A DNA stretch of 36,284 bases. Source: a virus. Positions 1 through 14,482 of this stretch are shown here, in pieces. Both the position numbers and the translations under genes were made by a program. The notes under the pieces are model-generated. The model was not told the origin of the DNA, made no database searches, and saw nothing but the letters and a program-made list of their open reading frames with translations. Every line of letters begins with the position of its first letter. The stretch's first letter is position 1. Location of the stretch: positions 1 to 36,284 of IMG/VR virus record IMGVR_UViG_3300035698_005679. One strand, written 5' to 3'.

Positions 1-174
1 CTTGCCGTAGACCGTCAGGCCGTCACTGACGGACACGTTTTTGCAGGAGGGGAACATGGTCTTGAACGCCGTCGCAATAGGGCAGTCTGCCGTATCGAGA
101 AATCCTTTGGATTTGGCGTAGTTGGCCGCGTCGAGCATCAACACAATAGTTTTTTGTTTGCGGAAGCGAGACAT
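1..174 (-). CDS. Unknown small protein, partial (runs off left edge)
   Basis: An open frame begins at ATG 174 and stays open for 58 codons to the window edge. AAAAGGA lies six bases before the ATG, a good ribosome site. The protein begins MSRFRKQKTIVLMLDAANYA and contains a hydrophobic stretch followed by D-A-A-N; I do not recognise a family. It is the last visible member of a minus-strand run of tiny genes, each preceded by a copy of the structured repeat (here 193-279). A longer overlapping frame at 23-322 reads through the repeat and is a shadow. Real gene likely; function unknown. Confidence 0.55.
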   Translation of the reverse strand, partial: MSRFRKQKTIVLMLDAANYAKSKGFLDTADCPIATAFKTMFPSCKNVSVSDGLTVYGK

Positions 175-192
175 AACAGGTCCTTTTGAGTA

Positions 193-279
193 GTGGGTGA
201 CTGGAAACCTGCCGACTAGGGCAGACCGCCGCCCTCCCACTTTGGGAGGCCGACAGTCTGGCCTGTGGGCAGACTAGGC
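193..279 (-). repeat. Structured intercistronic repeat, copy 1
   Basis: First of three copies (193-279, 503-589, 813-894) of an ~87-bp element. On the minus strand bases 222-238 and 244-260 form a 17-bp stem (one G/G mismatch, two G.T pairs) with a 5-base loop. A second short hairpin, CTGCC-CTAGTC-GGCAG, follows on the minus strand. No T-run follows, so it is not a classical terminator. It lies between the stop of the 274-483 gene and the ribosome site of the gene at 1-174, and its first bases supply that upstream gene's TAG stop. Confidence 0.85.
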
Positions 280-483
280 GGTCAACCAGGCCAGCGCCCA
301 AGCTCTCCGTTCTCCCGTCCAATGATATTGGACGTGGGCGACTAATGAGGCCTTGCCGTACGGAATGGCGAGCGTCATCATATTATTTTTGAGGTGGCGG
401 TCTGCAAGTATGCGCAGTATTACGCAGGGTGTGCAGTCGTAAACTTTGACCATCAGCACGCGTAGTTTTGCATCATCGTCCAT
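274..483 (-). CDS. Unknown small protein (69 aa)
   Basis: ATG at 483 follows TTGGAG with good spacing. The product starts MDDDAKLRVLMVKVYDCTP and ends WALAWLTA; the last codons and the TAG stop come from structured repeat copy 1. The ending resembles that of the neighbouring 584-796 product (WLVAWLA), as expected if both C-termini are partly encoded by, or adjacent to, the repeat. No known domain, signal peptide or catalytic motif is recognised. It belongs to the tandem small-gene cluster on the minus strand, a pattern typical of phage early or host-takeover regions; that role is inference only. Confidence 0.55.
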   Translation of the reverse strand: MDDDAKLRVLMVKVYDCTPCVILRILADRHLKNNMMTLAIPYGKASLVAHVQYHWTGERRAWALAWLTA

Positions 484-502
484 TTGACTTCTCCAATAGG
501 GG

Positions 503-589
503 GTGGGTGACTTGAAACCTACCTACTAGGGCAGGCCGCCGCCCTCCCACTTTGGGAGGCCGACAGTCTGGCCTAGGGGCAGACTAGGC
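503..589 (-). repeat. Structured intercistronic repeat, copy 2
   Basis: Second copy, nearly identical to copy 1 across 87 bp, including the shared GTGGGTGA edge. Differences bear on structure. In the small hairpin the closing T.G of copy 1 becomes C-G here, and a G-C pair becomes G.T, so the stem is kept; one pair in the basal part of the large stem is lost. It sits between the genes at 584-796 and 274-483 and supplies the TAG stop of the former. Confidence 0.85.
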
Positions 590-796
590 AAGCCAGGCGA
601 CTAGCCATGTGTGGAATTCCATTTGATATTCCTCACTTTCCTTCTCCATTTTATGAACGATGTGAATCGGTGCGATGGCGACCAACATTTTCCGCCAATG
701 GTGCGATAGTGCGGAGATATCGTTTCTAGTTTTAGCCTTGAAAATGTCTCCTACGATATCGCAGGCTTGACGAAACAACAATGTTTCACAATCCAT
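584..796 (-). CDS. Unknown small protein (70 aa)
   Basis: I place the start at ATG 796, preceded by TGGAG. An upstream in-frame start at 856 would lie inside repeat copy 3 and is rejected. The protein begins MDCETLLFRQACDIVGDIFK and is predicted helical, with basic and acidic residues interspersed and a hydrophobic WLVAWLA end. No family is recognised. The stop codon lies in repeat copy 2. It is the third gene of the minus-strand run of tiny genes. Confidence 0.55.
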   Translation of the reverse strand: MDCETLLFRQACDIVGDIFKAKTRNDISALSHHWRKMLVAIAPIHIVHKMEKESEEYQMEFHTWLVAWLA

Positions 797-812
797 TCTA
801 CTGCTCCAGAGG

Positions 813-894
813 AGTGATTGAAACCTGCCGACTAGGGCAGACCGCCGGCCTCCCACTTTGGGAGGCCGACAATCTGGCCTGGTGGAGGACTAGC
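813..894 (-). repeat. Structured intercistronic repeat, copy 3
   Basis: Third copy, slightly shorter at the downstream edge. In the large stem the G/G mismatch of copies 1 and 2 is a G-C pair here, and one basal C-G pair has become T.G. The loop and the flanking GCCCTAGT block are unchanged. It supplies the TAG stop of the 890-1093 gene and ends just before the ribosome site of the 584-796 gene. Sequence changes that keep pairing support an RNA structure rather than a DNA site. Confidence 0.8.
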
Positions 895-1093
895 CGATAA
901 TTCTTAAATTCCCTATCTTCGCTTGCGTATATGTTCTGGGCCCATCCTCAGTCAAACCGCTAATATACGGTTGAGAGGTTTTTCCAATCGGCTCATTACC
1001 GATTACGGAAACCAGCATGGTTCGTAGTTTCCCGTTGTACTCGCAAGCGATGATATCATCGACTCGAATCGTTTCAATTCCGACAATCGTCAT
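890..1093 (-). CDS. Unknown small protein (67 aa)
   Basis: ATG at 1093 follows AAGGAAAA. The product begins MTIVGIETIRVDDIIACEYN and alternates short hydrophobic strands with charged or glycine turns, which suggests a small beta-barrel (SH3-like) fold; that is inference from pattern only. Its stop lies in repeat copy 3. It is the first gene of the minus-strand cluster running to the left edge, downstream of the gene-free region at 1094-1762. Confidence 0.6.
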   Translation of the reverse strand: MTIVGIETIRVDDIIACEYNGKLRTMLVSVIGNEPIGKTSQPYISGLTEDGPRTYTQAKIGNLRIIG

Positions 1094-3033: not shown

Positions 3034-4848
3034 CTAGGACCTCCGAGTTAAGGTGAGGTTGGCTCTTGTTCTGATTGAGTCAAGACTATGGTTCCTTTTA
3101 AGGCGTCCGTTTAGGAAGACGGTTTCTAGTTCGTCGGGAATATCGTTATTTATGTAGCTGTCACGAACAGTAATATAGGAGGGGCCATGAGACCCGGTCG
3201 TTTTTTCTAGTTTGAGGCGACCCTTTTTGCTGGCTTTGTCGGGGGCATCAACAGGGTCTTTATAAACGTCTTTCCAGCCGTACTCCCTTTCAATGGAGCT
3301 ACACTTGAAGGCGAACTTCAAGGTGTCCCTATCTAGTTTTTGTAGGAGCCCACCGCCGCTACCGAAGGCAATGTTCTCAGCAGACCATCCGAAGGACTTC
3401 ATCCTCTTAAGGATTACCTCTATCATTTCGATGTCGATTCCGTCGCCCTGAATGAGGCGGACTTTTGGGTTTAGAATCTTGTGGCCGCTTGAAGTGATAG
3501 TTCCGCCGAAAGCCTTCCAGAGGATTGAAAGGCATTTTAATACTACTTCTGGGGGGTCCCCACTGTCAGGGCGAATGACGGTGACGCCCTCCCTCTCTAA
3601 TACTTGGTCCCTCAAGACTCCGCCCCACATATTCCTGCAGGCATCATAAATATCATAGCTGTCGCTTACACAGGCAATCGTACCAGTCGGATATTCGTCG
3701 AGCATATTCTGCATGGCGTCAACTTCGTGTTGTCTACCCCAACTAGTAATAGTGGAGTGTTCGGAGGCGGGAATCGAAAAGCCCGCCATCTCACAACCAT
3801 AGTAGTCCTTAGCAAACTCTAATGCCTCCATAGTATCGGTGCCTCGGAAATTAACTAGGTGGGCGCAACCTCCAAGTCCCGCCGTCTCATCGCTAGAGAC
3901 TCCCCTATATCCAAAGTCGTGAAGTTTAAAGTCTAGGCCCTCCATATCCCCTTCTGTCTCTCCCATATATCTCAAAATAATCTTCTTCATTTCGCGAGAC
4001 TGAGTACAAACAGTTGTAGGATACCAGACCTTAACAAGTAGGGTCTCTAGGAGGTTGGGCAGCCAAAAACAGCGGTCGTCTGTATTCTCGATGGTCATGA
4101 GGGCGTTTTTAGTAGGAACGACCGTACCCTCTGGAACCGCCCTAATATGTACGGGCAGTCTCCCCTCATAGGTATCCAGAATATATTCCCAGCCCTTCCT
4201 ATTAAAGGAGCCCTTGCCCATGTGCAATTCTATACGCTCCTCAGCATAGTCTATTTTTTCCTGCGTAACGACCTTCCCCTCCAAATATTTCTTCAGGTAG
4301 TATTGGAGACCGAAGAAGGTGGTCGTATTCCATTTTCCACCACGGCTCTCAAAGTAGGAGTGGATTTTCTTCGTATCCTTAGGATATTGCTTCCAGTGGG
4401 ACTCTTTATAGCTGTCGGTCTTTAGAATAATGTTGTGAGACATATTGTGTGAGTTCCTTGGAAAAAAGTCTGTTTTCTCTTTCTTTTTCCATGCTACTAG
4501 TTTATCAAGCTCATTCAGAGCCCTATCAAAATCATCTCTACCGTTTTTCTGGGGCTGGACGGAAATCGCCCTATCGTCAAAATAGGCGGTCGCCTCAGGT
4601 TTACATCCCTCAGTGAAAATCCTATCATAGGGAAGGTCATGCTCTTGCATGTATTGCTCCATCTTCTTATGGGCCGTCTCCGTACTTGGCCTACACGAAT
4701 AAATAAGGATGAAGTAGCCCCTCTCTCTTAGGGCTTCCAAAAACTCCCTGGCCCCTTCAAGAGGAGCCCCCATATTATAGGGCCCAGTCCACTTATAGTA
4801 CTTGGAGATTGTCCCATCAAAGTCAACCGCCACCGTTCGCTTGCTCAT
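3034..4848 (-). CDS. HAD-like domain fused to nicotinamide phosphoribosyltransferase (NAMPT)
   Basis: A 604-aa two-domain protein. Residues 1 to ~115 are a HAD-type phosphatase fold: nucleophile motif D9-F-D11-G-T, motif II Ser51 with C-R following, Lys83, and acidic D91-D92. Residues 136-604 match full-length NAMPT, which makes nicotinamide mononucleotide from nicotinamide and PRPP in NAD salvage. Visible hallmarks are KTDSYK, YFESRGG, D-F-G-Y-R315-G, F-R-G-T-D338, S-E-H364 (the catalytic His), V-I-R426-P-D-S-G and Q-G-D-G-I-D, equivalent to the nicotinamide- and PRPP-contacting residues of human NAMPT. A Met at 136 (ATG 4443) has AAGGA upstream, so NAMPT alone may also be made. Phage NAMPT-family enzymes are known to rebuild NAD during infection, including against NAD-depleting defences; some relatives use ADP-ribose pyrophosphate instead of PRPP, which sequence reading cannot settle. 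The start overlaps the upstream stop by four bases. Confidence 0.93.
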   Translation of the reverse strand: MSKRTVAVDFDGTISKYYKWTGPYNMGAPLEGAREFLEALRERGYFILIYSCRPSTETAHKKMEQYMQEHDLPYDRIFTEGCKPEATAYFDDRAISVQPQKNGRDDFDRALNELDKLVAWKKKEKTDFFPRNSHNMSHNIILKTDSYKESHWKQYPKDTKKIHSYFESRGGKWNTTTFFGLQYYLKKYLEGKVVTQEKIDYAEERIELHMGKGSFNRKGWEYILDTYEGRLPVHIRAVPEGTVVPTKNALMTIENTDDRCFWLPNLLETLLVKVWYPTTVCTQSREMKKIILRYMGETEGDMEGLDFKLHDFGYRGVSSDETAGLGGCAHLVNFRGTDTMEALEFAKDYYGCEMAGFSIPASEHSTITSWGRQHEVDAMQNMLDEYPTGTIACVSDSYDIYDACRNMWGGVLRDQVLEREGVTVIRPDSGDPPEVVLKCLSILWKAFGGTITSSGHKILNPKVRLIQGDGIDIEMIEVILKRMKSFGWSAENIAFGSGGGLLQKLDRDTLKFAFKCSSIEREYGWKDVYKDPVDAPDKASKKGRLKLEKTTGSHGPSYITVRDSYINNDIPDELETVFLNGRLKRNHSLDSIRTRANLTLTRRS

Positions 4849-5416: not shown

Positions 5417-6058
5417 ATGAAGACTCCAGAGGGGATGACAGAGCAGGAGGTACTTGACATAATTGATAATATTGCGAATCGCCTGGCTTACAAGTTTAAG
5501 TTTGGTTACCACACTGTGGAAGACATGAAGCAGCAGGCCAGGCTATATGCTTTACAAAAAATAGATAAGTATGATGGGAAAAGACCACTTGAGAATTTTC
5601 TGTGGACCTGTGTTCGAAACCTGTTGTTCAACAATAAGAGGGACAACTATGAGAGGCCAGACCTCCCATGTTTGAATTGTCCACTAAACGCCCACGACCC
5701 ATATTGCGATAAGTCAACTAGCGGGTGTCTGGATTTTGCAGACAAAGCTAGTTGCGAACTATACGCCAAGTGGATGAAGAGAAATTCAGCCAAGAAGAAT
5801 TTGATGGCCCCTATTACATTTGGTAATGTGGTAGATGAAAAAGAAGACGGTATGAAGACCAGCGTTGAACTAGATAAGCAGTTGGATTTGAAGACCTTCT
5901 TTGAGATAATAGAGGAAGACATTCCATTAGAATTTAAGGCCGACCTGATTAGGTTGAAACACGAAATTAGTATCCCAAAGATTCGCAGAGAAAAGGTTTA
6001 TAGGGCCGTGAGGGCTATTTTAGAAGAGAGGGGACTCAATGAGCCGGAAGCGTGGTAA
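5417..6058 (+). CDS. Sigma-factor-like protein (sigma70 region 2 type)
   Basis: A 213-aa protein whose residues ~12-78 have the pattern of sigma70 region 2: I-A-N-R-L-A-Y-K-F, a V-E-D-M-K-Q-Q-A-R helix, then Y-D-G-K-R-P-L-E-N-F-L-W-T-C-V-R-N-L-L. This arrangement is shared by distant phage late sigma factors such as T4 gp55. Five cysteines at about 85, 88, 97, 104 and 113 follow and may bind zinc. A basic C-terminal helix (IPKIRREKVYRAVRAIL) could be a small region-4 substitute. It would direct host RNA polymerase to phage promoters, and the GGTGTATAAT motif upstream of structural genes is a natural candidate target. Assignment rests on pattern, not alignment. Confidence 0.65.
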   Translation: MKTPEGMTEQEVLDIIDNIANRLAYKFKFGYHTVEDMKQQARLYALQKIDKYDGKRPLENFLWTCVRNLLFNNKRDNYERPDLPCLNCPLNAHDPYCDKSTSGCLDFADKASCELYAKWMKRNSAKKNLMAPITFGNVVDEKEDGMKTSVELDKQLDLKTFFEIIEEDIPLEFKADLIRLKHEISIPKIRREKVYRAVRAILEERGLNEPEAW

Positions 6059-10253: not shown

Positions 10254-10707
10254 TACAAGAGAGAAGATGCCGTGGACTCTCACGGCATCCACTATTGATG
10301 GTGCTATCTCTAAAAAGTTAGATACGGGCGACTATTCTATCGAAGGCTATGAAGATAAGGTCTGTATTGAGAGAAAGAGGGATGCTGCGGAACTAGCAGC
10401 CAACGTCTGTCAGGCCCGCTTTAAGTCTGAGCTAGAGAGAATGATGACCTATGAATATAGATATCTCATCTTAGAGTTCAACATACAGGATGTCCTAGAT
10501 TATCCGGTGGGTTCTAGTGTACCCCCAGCTAGATGGAAAAAGTTAAAGACCAGGGGGCCCTACATAATGAAGTGTATCTCCCAGTTTCAAGTAAAGTATG
10601 GTATTAATGTGGTGTTTGCAGGGAACTCCAGGAATGCCGAATACGCAGCAACCAATATAATGAAGAGAATATATGAGCGACTACATACCGATTCGCCTGA
10701 GAACTGA
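10234..10707 (+). CDS. ERCC4/XPF-type nuclease domain protein
   Basis: A single-domain nuclease of 157 aa. The XPF-family core is clear: I-V-D7-T-R-E10, K-L-D30-T-G-D33-Y-S, and the signature I-E46-R-K-R-D50 followed by D/E-rich helices. These residues bind the catalytic metal in structure-specific nucleases that cut branched DNA. No helicase or HhH domain is attached, so it is the minimal phage form. It overlaps the terminase gene by 35 bases, which suggests a role resolving branched replicating DNA before packaging; that link is inference. Confidence 0.85.
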   Translation: MFTIIVDTREKMPWTLTASTIDGAISKKLDTGDYSIEGYEDKVCIERKRDAAELAANVCQARFKSELERMMTYEYRYLILEFNIQDVLDYPVGSSVPPARWKKLKTRGPYIMKCISQFQVKYGINVVFAGNSRNAEYAATNIMKRIYERLHTDSPEN

Positions 10708-13700
10708 GGAGGATAATGCCTGGTTAGGACTAGGCAATGTCTCAAAACTAGACATTAAAAATCCTCTGGCAGATTACGACGAAGAACGCCCAGGTTATGC
10801 AGAGATGAAACTTATGCGTAATCCTGAGTACCTTTCTTTTGCTGCCGAAACTCTCATGGGAATTGATAATATCCCAGAACAAAGTATGGTTTTGGAAGAG
10901 CTGTGGAAGCGGCCTTTTCCTATGTTCGTTGCAAGTAGAGGATTCGGAAAAGCGGCACCCTTGAACACTAAAGTTAGAGTTAAAGGTGGGTGGAAATACA
11001 TACAAGATGTAATGCCTAATGACCTAGTATATGGGTCTGATGGTAAGCTAGCTAAGGTGACTTGGGTTAGCGGAAAACAACCTAATCTCAAAATGTATAG
11101 AATTACATTAAGGGATGGTCGTGAGGTTGAGTGTTGTGAAGACCATATGTGGAAGGTGTGGGATAAGAACAAGAATAGAAATAAGAAGGAGGTTGTTTGG
11201 TCTGAACTTACTACTAAGGAGATGGTGGTTCGCTATTACTATGATAGAATTGGGGAGAAGTCTTCAGGTAGAGAGTATGTATACGCACTCCCAATTAATG
11301 AGCCTCTATCTTGTGAAGACGATGTTGACCTACCTTTACATCCTTATATCTTAGGGGTGTTGCTTGGGGACGGCTCCATTACCACTAAAGGTATTGGGAT
11401 TACCTCTGCAGACACTGAAGTTATAGATAGAGTTGCAGGCTTTCTTCCTAATGGATATAAGGTACACAGTATAGGTGCTGGAGATATATCATACAGTATT
11501 GTTCGTACAGACGAAGAAGTTCCGGCCTTTTGGACCATCTTAGAAAAGATTGGAGTTCTAGGATGTGGCTCTAAAACCAAATTCATCCCCGACCTATACA
11601 AATTCGCCAGTTCTGAGCAGAAGCTAGAACTAATCAAGGGCTTAATGGATACTGACGAGTATTCTAATGGACAGTCTACATTAGAGTATTATACAATATC
11701 TGATGCTTTGAGTAACGACTTCCTAGAGGTCGCCAGGTCTCTTGGCCTACACTGCTCCCATAAAATTAGACAGGCATGGTTTCAAAAGAAGAGATATAAC
11801 GACTGCCATAGAATCTCCATCTATACAGATAAGGCTATATTCTCTCTGCCAAGGAAATTGAGTTATTTGAATCATACTATTTCTAAGCAGGGTCAGTCTA
11901 GATACACAAAAGTATTCATAGTAGATATAGAAGAGATTGATAGGGCTGATGGTTATTGCATGTCGGTAGACAACTATGACCATACCTACATCATTGATAA
12001 TTATGTGGTCACCCACAACTCCTTCCTCCTGGCAGAATACGCCATGCTCCGCTGTGCCCTAGTCCCAGGGTCCAAAATAGTTATTGTAGGCGCAGCCTTC
12101 CGTCAATCTAAAGTCATCTTTGACTATATGGTAAACATCTGGGATAACGCCCCCATCCTACGTTCAGTGTGTGGTTCTAGTTCTGGTCCTCGTTCTAGTC
12201 CAGACCGCTGCCTAATGACTATCAATGATAGTTGGGCTATGGCTATCCCTCTAGGTAATGGTGATAAAATTAGAGGTTTGAGAGCGCATACTATTCTTGC
12301 CGACGAATTCGCCTGCCTAGTAAAAGATAGTCTTGTTGAGACTGATGGGGGCTTCGTCCGTATACAAAGTGGTCATGGTCACCTTGTTCTTACTGGGGAC
12401 GACGCAGTTCAAACTGAAAGGCCAATGGCCTTCATTCATACTCCTCCTAGCGTTGTCTATGAGATTAAGCTTAAGAATGGGTATGTCATCAGGTGTTCGG
12501 AAAACCATAAGGTGAAGACTCAGGGGGGCTGGAAGAAGCCGTTGGAATTGTCTGAGGCGGATGCTATAGAACAGTCTGTGTGTGGAGAAGCTATTTTTGG
12601 GCAGCACTATATAGAGGGTTTTAGCGATAAGGAAGCTTATTCTTTGGGTTTAGCTATAGATAGGGCTTGCCTAGACTATAAGGTCCCAGATGAAATACTA
12701 GTATCCCCTAAGTCTATAATACAGAGCTATGTCTTAGGCGTTCTATCTTCTTGTGAAAACCCCCTATTCTCTTCTGAAAGATTCTGTCGAGACATCCAAT
12801 TCTTACTATACAAATTAGGTTTTGATGGATGCGTTGAAAAAGAGGGAGATTTATGGAGGTGGTCTCTGAGTTTAGAACCTACTGTAGACCATAGACAGGT
12901 ACTCTCCGTAACCAAACTAGACGGCCTTCAAACCCTCTACGACTACTATCTTCCAAAGACCCACAGTTTTTATGCTGAGGGACATAGGCAGCACAACTCT
13001 ATCCCTCCAGACATCTTCGAAACAGTCGTCCGTGGTTTCACCGCCGTATCCGCCAAGCCTATTGATAATGTGAAGGCCGCTGCTCGTAGAAAATTTCTGA
13101 AGTCTACAGGCAATTGGTCCAAGAAGAAGGAGGGCCAATACGGTAATCGTCGAGTAAACCAAGTTATCATTTCTGGTACTGCCGACTATGACTTTAAACA
13201 TTTTGCGGACTACTGGAAGAGATATTGTAAGATTATCCGTAGTGAGGGCAAGCCAGGAAAGTTGAAAGATATCTTTGGTACAGAAGAAGACATTCCAGAA
13301 AACTTCAGCTACAAGGATTTCTCTGTTATAAGAATTCCCTACAAACTAATACCAGAAGGCTTCATGGATGATAAGCAGGTCGCTCAGGCTAAGGCCACTG
13401 TACATTCTGGAGTGTACCAAATGGAATATGGTGGCGTTTTTACTGCTGACAGCGATGGCTTCTTCCGTCGTAGCCTCATCGAAAAATGTGTAACCACCAC
13501 CCCCATCGAAGTATCGTCTGGGGCAGTCCAGTTTGATGCTATGGTAGAAGGTAATCATGGATATGAATACGTATTCGGAGTTGACCCCGCCTCAGAAGCG
13601 GACAACTTCTCCATCGTTATCCTTGAGGTAAGAGAAGACCACAACAGGGTCGTATATTGCTGGACCACAACAAGAAAAGACTTTACGCAGAGAAAGAAAG

Positions 13701-14482
13701 ATGGCCTTACAGATGTCGCGGACTTCTATGGCTTCTGTGCCAGAAAGATTAGGGACTTAGCCAGGGTATTTCCCAGCCAACATATTGCCGTGGATGCACA
13801 AGGTGGCGGTATCGCCGTCATGGAGGCTTTACACGACCCAGCTAAACTATATAAGGGTGAGAGATTGCTATGGCCCATCGTAGACCCAGAAAAAACCCAG
13901 CTAACCGACGATGAGAGCGGCGACCACTATCTCCACATGATTCAGTTCGCAGACGGTAAGTGGACTGAACAAGCTAATCATGGCCTTCGTAAAGATATGG
14001 AAGATAAGGTTATTCTGTTCCCTCGATATGACGGCATTTCCCTGGCAATGGCCACAGACTATGATGAGCGGATGACTCAAATCCATGAGGCCAAAGTCTC
14101 CAAGTATGATTCTATGGAAGATTGCATCATCGAAATAGAGAAGCTAAAAGACGAACTTTGTACTATCACCCATACTAGAACAGGAACCGGAGTTAGTGCT
14201 AGAGACCGCTGGGATACGCCCGAACTCATTATGGCGAACGGCAGAAAGGGGCGACTGCGTAAAGACCGCTACTCCTCCCTGGTGATGGCCAACATGGTTG
14301 CCCGTCAATTGGCTCGCGCCCACTCTCCTGTAAGATTTGGTATTATTGGGGGCCTGGCTAAAGATTTGGCGCAGACCTCTGACAATAAGACCCAAGGAAT
14401 GTATGCGGGCTCTCCCGCCTGGCTACAGAATGGGGCCGGTGGAGCTTCCTGGATGAAGGCGATTTCTCGCCAGAACAAATAG
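10673..14482 (+). CDS. Terminase large subunit containing two inteins
   Basis: A 1269-aa precursor; removal of the two inteins (residues 94-449 and 548-775) leaves a 685-aa packaging ATPase-nuclease. Walker A is assembled only after splicing: V-A-S-R-G-F-G-K93 joins S450. Walker B is I-L-A-D-E-F-A547, which joins S776-I-P-P-D. The C-terminal RNase H-like nuclease shows F-G-V-D971-P-A and I-A-V-D1041-A-Q-G-G-G. Without splicing neither ATP site would be intact. The start at 10673 lies inside the ERCC4 gene, with a weak AAGAGA ribosome site. The portal gene follows after 57 bases that hold a promoter-like motif. Confidence 0.95.
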   Translation: MSDYIPIRLRTEEDNAWLGLGNVSKLDIKNPLADYDEERPGYAEMKLMRNPEYLSFAAETLMGIDNIPEQSMVLEELWKRPFPMFVASRGFGKAAPLNTKVRVKGGWKYIQDVMPNDLVYGSDGKLAKVTWVSGKQPNLKMYRITLRDGREVECCEDHMWKVWDKNKNRNKKEVVWSELTTKEMVVRYYYDRIGEKSSGREYVYALPINEPLSCEDDVDLPLHPYILGVLLGDGSITTKGIGITSADTEVIDRVAGFLPNGYKVHSIGAGDISYSIVRTDEEVPAFWTILEKIGVLGCGSKTKFIPDLYKFASSEQKLELIKGLMDTDEYSNGQSTLEYYTISDALSNDFLEVARSLGLHCSHKIRQAWFQKKRYNDCHRISIYTDKAIFSLPRKLSYLNHTISKQGQSRYTKVFIVDIEEIDRADGYCMSVDNYDHTYIIDNYVVTHNSFLLAEYAMLRCALVPGSKIVIVGAAFRQSKVIFDYMVNIWDNAPILRSVCGSSSGPRSSPDRCLMTINDSWAMAIPLGNGDKIRGLRAHTILADEFACLVKDSLVETDGGFVRIQSGHGHLVLTGDDAVQTERPMAFIHTPPSVVYEIKLKNGYVIRCSENHKVKTQGGWKKPLELSEADAIEQSVCGEAIFGQHYIEGFSDKEAYSLGLAIDRACLDYKVPDEILVSPKSIIQSYVLGVLSSCENPLFSSERFCRDIQFLLYKLGFDGCVEKEGDLWRWSLSLEPTVDHRQVLSVTKLDGLQTLYDYYLPKTHSFYAEGHRQHNSIPPDIFETVVRGFTAVSAKPIDNVKAAARRKFLKSTGNWSKKKEGQYGNRRVNQVIISGTADYDFKHFADYWKRYCKIIRSEGKPGKLKDIFGTEEDIPENFSYKDFSVIRIPYKLIPEGFMDDKQVAQAKATVHSGVYQMEYGGVFTADSDGFFRRSLIEKCVTTTPIEVSSGAVQFDAMVEGNHGYEYVFGVDPASEADNFSIVILEVREDHNRVVYCWTTTRKDFTQRKKDGLTDVADFYGFCARKIRDLARVFPSQHIAVDAQGGGIAVMEALHDPAKLYKGERLLWPIVDPEKTQLTDDESGDHYLHMIQFADGKWTEQANHGLRKDMEDKVILFPRYDGISLAMATDYDERMTQIHEAKVSKYDSMEDCIIEIEKLKDELCTITHTRTGTGVSARDRWDTPELIMANGRKGRLRKDRYSSLVMANMVARQLARAHSPVRFGIIGGLAKDLAQTSDNKTQGMYAGSPAWLQNGAGGASWMKAISRQNK
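10952..12019 (+). mobile_element. Intein 1 in terminase Walker A (apparent class 3, LAGLIDADG)
   Basis: A 356-residue in-frame intein, precursor residues A94-N449, inserted between K and S of the Walker A motif. It starts with Ala, which cannot perform the usual first acyl shift. Instead it has the W-C-T set that defines class 3 inteins: W160 after D-H158-M in block B, C429 in block F (G-Y-C-M-S-V-D-N) and T447 in V-V-T-H-N. It ends H448-N449 with Ser as +1. A LAGLIDADG homing endonuclease is embedded, with both acidic motifs kept: L-G-V-L-L-G-D233-G and K-G-L-M-D326-T-D328. Confidence 0.9.
12314..12997 (+). mobile_element. Intein 2 after terminase Walker B (class 1, decayed endonuclease)
   Basis: A 228-residue in-frame intein, precursor residues C548-N775, inserted between A547 of A-D-E-F-A and S776. 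It has a standard Cys at position 1, a block B of type C-S-E-N-H-K-V, a block F-like Y-D-Y-Y, and ends H-R-Q-H-N with Ser +1. The central region aligns in layout with a LAGLIDADG domain, but the two motifs read A-Y-S-L-G-L-A-I-D-R and S-Y-V-L-G-V-L-S-S-C. The usual G-D-G and D-x-D acidic ends are largely lost, so the endonuclease is probably inactive while splicing residues are kept. Confidence 0.88.

Follow-up and report, generated by a model that had tools for sequence, protein, structure and literature searches.

Palindromic elements between tiny phage genes as a possible diverged array of regulator sites

Three copies of an 87-nt element lie between tiny genes at the left end of IMG/VR record IMGVR_UViG_3300035698_005679, a linear viral sequence of 36,284 bases that was analysed in its entirety and is referred to here as the window. 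An earlier note on this DNA had taken them for a structured RNA, and the question raised by the locus is whether such elements act in the message or are read as DNA. The question bears on large uncultured phages, which carry long stretches of tiny genes of unknown function and for which the elements offer a handle on the control of these genes.

The element copies and their neighbourhood

The record probably represents part of a larger genome. For its capsid protein there are 188 relatives in IMG/VR (top identity ca. 75%), whose contigs are as long as 230 kb, and the sole isolate matched is Bacillus phage G (20.7%). The minus strand encodes the genes left of ca. 5 kb, and the plus strand the structural genes. 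The sigma-70 region 2 gene (Table 1) is the first of a block, p5417-p6039-GMD-p10234-terL, that is syntenic in relatives and whose stretch from sigma factor to terL served as the marker placing the early region in these. Searches for homologues of the four tiny genes, including among the relatives, returned none.

The tiny genes and the sense of the element share the minus (coding) strand. On this strand each copy opens with GSCTAG and closes a short distance ahead of the next gene's ribosome site. That gene has its own Shine-Dalgarno sequence and ATG. The 77-nt core is the most conserved part of the element. The position of the three copies between tiny genes, as given in the earlier note, was confirmed, and so was its statement that the preceding gene takes its stop codon from the element, with the TAG (274-276, 584-586 and 890-892 in copies 1, 2 and 3) falling on core columns 4-6 in all three cases. 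Its view that a terminator is unlikely also holds, the stable hairpin having no T-run and no terminator-like site being called at any copy. An integron attC site was considered as well and rejected, since its ends, read by eye as GCCTAGT (5') and GGTTTC (3'), do not fit the boxes RYYYAAC and GTTRRRY.

Searches with the element itself pointed to no homologue: the window core sequences had no exact-pattern match in IMG/VR or in GTDB genomes, blastn against phages and plasmids gave nothing meaningful, and Rfam had 0 matches in the window at gathering score. A covariance-model search, which the earlier note had called for over phage genomes, was performed with a model (R1), together with blastn, over 40 related records and found the window copies only. 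The top match of a whole-element profile search (L211, 6334-6401) was not significant (E = 1.7).

Several other features were seen in the window. A GIY-YIG endonuclease-like gene (1763-2563) adjoins the tiny-gene region, and 3034-4848 is occupied by a single long gene, for the C-terminal part of which one relative (45% identity) turned up, in G030, among 37 related records searched. Between 1376 and 1640, in minus-strand sense, there are about 12 tandem units of 19 nt, several of which contain the strong Shine-Dalgarno-like AAGGAGGT; all seven minus-strand copies of this motif in the window lie within that interval. Finally, the terminase gene (10673-14482) combines intein splicing (two splicing stretches) with homing endonuclease domains.

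Table 1. Positions of the element copies, their dyads and the genes discussed, numbered from the first base of the window
Feature	Position	Strand	Remarks
Tiny gene 1	1..174	-	reading frame and Shine-Dalgarno; truncated by the left end of the record
Element copy 1	193..279 (core 203-279)	-	repeat; fold z -5.5
Copy 1 dyad B	209..224	-	CTGCCCTAGTCGGCAG; perfect CTGCC/GGCAG arms, score 19.2
Copy 1 central dyad	234..248	-	CTCCCAAAGTGGGAG
Copy 1 dyad A	258..272	-	CTGCCCACAGGCCAG; CTGCC-type arm score 13.0
Tiny gene 2	274..483	-	69 aa; TAG within copy 1
Element copy 2	503..589 (core 513-589)	-	93% identity to copy 1; fold z -3.2
Copy 2 dyad B	519..534	-	CTGCCCTAGTAGGTAG; arm score 11.2
Copy 2 central dyad	544..558	-	CTCCCAAAGTGGGAG
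Copy 2 dyad A	568..582	-	CTGCCCCTAGGCCAG; arm score 13.0
Tiny gene 3	584..796	-	70 aa; TAG within copy 2
Element copy 3	809..895 (core 819-895)	-	84% identity to copy 1, 92% over 74 nt; fold z -5.2
Copy 3 dyad B	825..840	-	CTGCCCTAGTCGGCAG; perfect arms, score 19.2
Copy 3 central dyad	850..864	-	CTCCCAAAGTGGGAG
Copy 3 dyad A	874..888	-	degenerate; arms broken
Tiny gene 4	890..1093	-	67 aa; TAG within copy 3
Sigma-70 region 2 protein gene	5417..6058	+	Pfam PF04542, E 7.5e-6; synteny; first of syntenic block

Fold of the element and the case for a structured RNA

The minus strand of each copy folds in silico into one long imperfect hairpin (z-scores against dinucleotide shuffles in Table 1), and this sense-strand fold is stronger than the antisense one. 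None of the 26 pairs of the consensus fold has undergone a two-sided change among the three copies. In the long hairpin, the change found in copy 2 at column 55 disrupts an A-U pair and copy 3 loses two outer pairs. All three copies maintain an alternative with two hairpins (columns 25-53 and 55-72), in which there are two one-sided changes, a mismatch that copy 3 repairs and, here too, no two-sided change. The substitutions pointed out in the earlier note do occur, the G/G mismatch at columns 30/48 being repaired in copy 3 and the U.G pair at columns 55/72 of the second hairpin becoming C-G in copy 2, but both repairs are one-sided and do not stand as compensation. With three copies only, a structure can be neither proved nor excluded.

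It is doubtful that the element acts as a structured RNA in the polycistronic mRNA, that is, as a site of RNase III-type processing or as a protecting hairpin, separating and stabilising the message of each tiny gene. The very stable sense fold, the location between co-oriented genes with neither promoter nor terminator, and the three variable positions of the central and second hairpins, which keep or improve pairing, would all suit such a role. Against it, no pair shows a two-sided change, the outer stem is broken in copies 2 and 3, Rfam provides no match and, as described below, the stems of relatives are not kept by compensation. The proposal of an RNA element conserved through compensatory change was not upheld: the three copies hold 0 pairs with two-sided changes and the 122 dyads of one family in relatives no compensatory change, so that the compensatory change beyond chance by which the earlier note had meant its proposal to be judged is missing from both. 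In the window phage, a further effect at the level of RNA is conceivable.

Palindrome arrays in related phages

In relatives, dispersed intergenic repeats sit just upstream of the syntenic sigma-factor/terminase block. Arrays of palindromes were detected in 35 of the 43 related IMG/VR loci having at least 3 kb upstream, several of which are near-duplicates so that the counts are not independent: 20 loci have a TAAGT type, 13 a CTGCC type, one has both and one has a third type, TTATTGAGA, which is confined to few loci, while 8 have none. Almost always, a locus carries one type only. The typical element is composed of two short palindromes flanking a G+C-rich core, lies in gene sense, often right after a stop codon, and in most cases has a sigma-70-like promoter next to it on the downstream side. 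Within one phage the palindrome hardly varies, whereas from lineage to lineage it differs.

The TAAGT type was collected by iterative nhmmer as 51 copies in six records, all within a single early region in each phage, and consists of two dyads around a core that is rich in G and C and variable in sequence. Promoter scores, which are consensus matches, reach 10-12 of 12 for 34 of the 51 copies in sense and for none in antisense. For 28 of the 51, the called stop upstream is at most ca. 40 nt away, two elements with an opposite-strand gene called upstream being omitted from the count; gene calls in relatives were made by a simple script that may miss tiny genes and misplace starts. This family displays no helix-wise covariation, and the consensus fold of its extended alignment is empty.

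The CTGCC type is represented by 122 clustered dyads in six records, including 51 dyad pairs at exactly 29 nt, with spacers rich in GGCCGCG and an AAA centre on the sense strand in 91 of the 122 dyads. Promoter scores of 10-12 of 12 were obtained for 41 of the 51 in sense versus 1 of 51 in antisense. Where pairs have changed in these dyads they have done so by single changes that mostly break the pair on the sense strand, where A-C mismatches outnumber G-U, and compensatory changes number 0. The dyads are near-uniform within a phage while the spacers drift.

Two further observations concern these early regions. The sigma-54 promoter consensus, TGGCAC-N5-TTGC, is far commoner than in shuffles in those of G008, G022, G031, L188, L211, L225, L242 and L245, and in CTGCC-type phages it is nearly always directed against the early genes. 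In G026, at ca. 90.7-96 kb, tRNA-like sequences share the tiny-gene region and its spacers with palindrome elements.

The window copies also contain dyads, which lie at core columns 8, 32 and 56, i.e. in steps of 24 nt (Table 1). When scored with the CTGCC-family profile, the three central dyads are the top full-profile matches in the window, bar one other site, and the triple-dyad scores of the copies (37.1, 29.2 and 23.6) are the best window-wide, with the next-ranked also falling inside the elements. Base-pair permutation within the same fold reached the triple score in 0 of 4000 cases for each copy, and structure-preserving permutation reached the pair score in 1 of 20000. The likeness to the CTGCC family is confined to the short arms, and the 24/24 spacing departs from the 29 nt of the CTGCC pairs; triple dyads with a 24-nt step do occur in relatives, e.g. 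L211. No promoter is recognisable at the window copies, which score 6-8 of 12 against mostly 10-12 in relatives.

With regard to the dyad-core-dyad class as defined here, the window element thus has the fixed-spacing dyads, the G+C-rich spacers and the gene sense, and synteny places it, like the class, among the tiny genes that precede the sigma/terminase block; the adjacent sigma-70-like promoter, which is usual in the class and not universal, is lacking. Judged from sequence, its assignment as a diverged and promoterless member of the intergenic palindrome-array class of this clade appears fairly secure. What looked like an isolated RNA oddity would then belong to a widespread class.

The cassette-like placement described in the earlier note was also found beyond the window, many early gene boundaries in relatives carrying such an element, usually with its own promoter. 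This raises the possibility of a recombination module, in which palindromic cassettes would serve to duplicate, lose or swap tiny genes in the manner of the promoter-early stem-loops (PeSLs) of T4-like phages, regulation being secondary. The presence of like elements at many boundaries of the tiny-gene region, the lack of homologues of the window tiny genes in relatives and the promoter plus palindrome cassettes of the latter are consistent with this, yet it is rather unlikely, as spacers and flanks in relatives vary between copies, with no apparent homogenisation by recombination. Stop-codon readthrough, by which a hairpin after the UAG would let some ribosomes run into the next gene, is very improbable: in copies 1 and 3 the post-UAG frame does run on without a stop into the next start codon, and 4 of the 6 later core differences are at third codon positions of that frame (alignment count), but copy 2 is out of frame and then stops, the next genes each have a Shine-Dalgarno sequence and ATG, and the stop codon is generally outside the elements of relatives.

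A putative regulator and its precedents

The reading that we favour, at a probability of about 0.5, is that the window copies form a diverged array of DNA sites, operator- or stoperator-like, controlling transcription through the early tiny-gene operon. The dyads would be recognised by a putative DNA-binding regulator of the phage (or host), which would in relatives work from a position immediately ahead of each early promoter and in the window act on polymerase as it passes between genes, in the way of a stoperator. That the dyads hardly vary within a phage and are exchanged outright from one lineage to the next points to a reader of DNA acting in trans rather than to selection for the fold alone. 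Likewise, because the 122 dyads hold no compensatory change, the TAAGT helices do not covary and the dyads stay uniform as their spacers drift, a role as a DNA site for a regulator protein is more likely than one as a structured RNA. We infer both the reading of the sites by a protein and an effect on elongation or early shut-off. Several points count against this site array. The window copies lack the promoter of relatives and have a 24/24 spacing, their likeness to the CTGCC family is limited to short arms, and the whole-element profile search gave no better than E = 1.7. Moreover, a dimeric repressor would not usually have symmetric sites that all face one way, and the fold of the window element is far stronger than a simple operator requires.

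On a broader scale, and more tentatively, these arrays may constitute a clade-wide control system, undescribed in the open-access literature searched, in which lineage-specific tandem palindromes are placed on many early tiny genes, a co-evolving phage regulator switches early transcription, and the window copies represent promoterless road-blocks within an operon. The elements mark gene boundaries and early promoters, and their differences between lineages resemble those of immunity-type operators. They also predict a cognate regulator, for which one could search by matching site type to gene content.

The nearest precedent for the promoter plus palindrome cassettes of relatives is found in the PeSLs of the T4-like phages RB49 and phi1, reportedly described by Arbiol et al. 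in 2010, in a paper that PMC4177764 cites, as cassettes of a sigma-70-like promoter and a stem-loop between small genes, in variable regions. In relatives, however, the palindromes are paired around a G+C core and lie upstream of the promoter, and the window copies have neither an early sigma-70 promoter nor a terminator tail.

For the window copies, a comparison can be made with the stoperators of cluster A mycobacteriophages (L5, Bxb1), which are many short intergenic sites oriented with transcription, with a lineage-specific consensus, some located at promoters and most not (PMC6550527, PMC9283540). The window copies and the elements of relatives are similarly intergenic, in gene sense and lineage-specific. 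Stoperators are, however, asymmetric sites of 13-14 bp bound by a monomer (PMC6550527, PMC9283540), whereas the present elements are tandem palindromes around a G+C-rich core, and elongation is halted at stoperators by a phage repressor, whereas the regulator proposed here is putative. Finally, the SPBRE of Bacillus phage SPbeta is a repeated 15-bp site found in many intergenic regions and read by the master repressor MrpR (PMC10516654). SPBRE sites are located in prophage promoter regions, and the window copies inside an operon with a regulator that is putative. With SPBRE and MrpR there is, besides the stoperators, another known case of a single repressor that reads an intergenic site repeated across a large phage.
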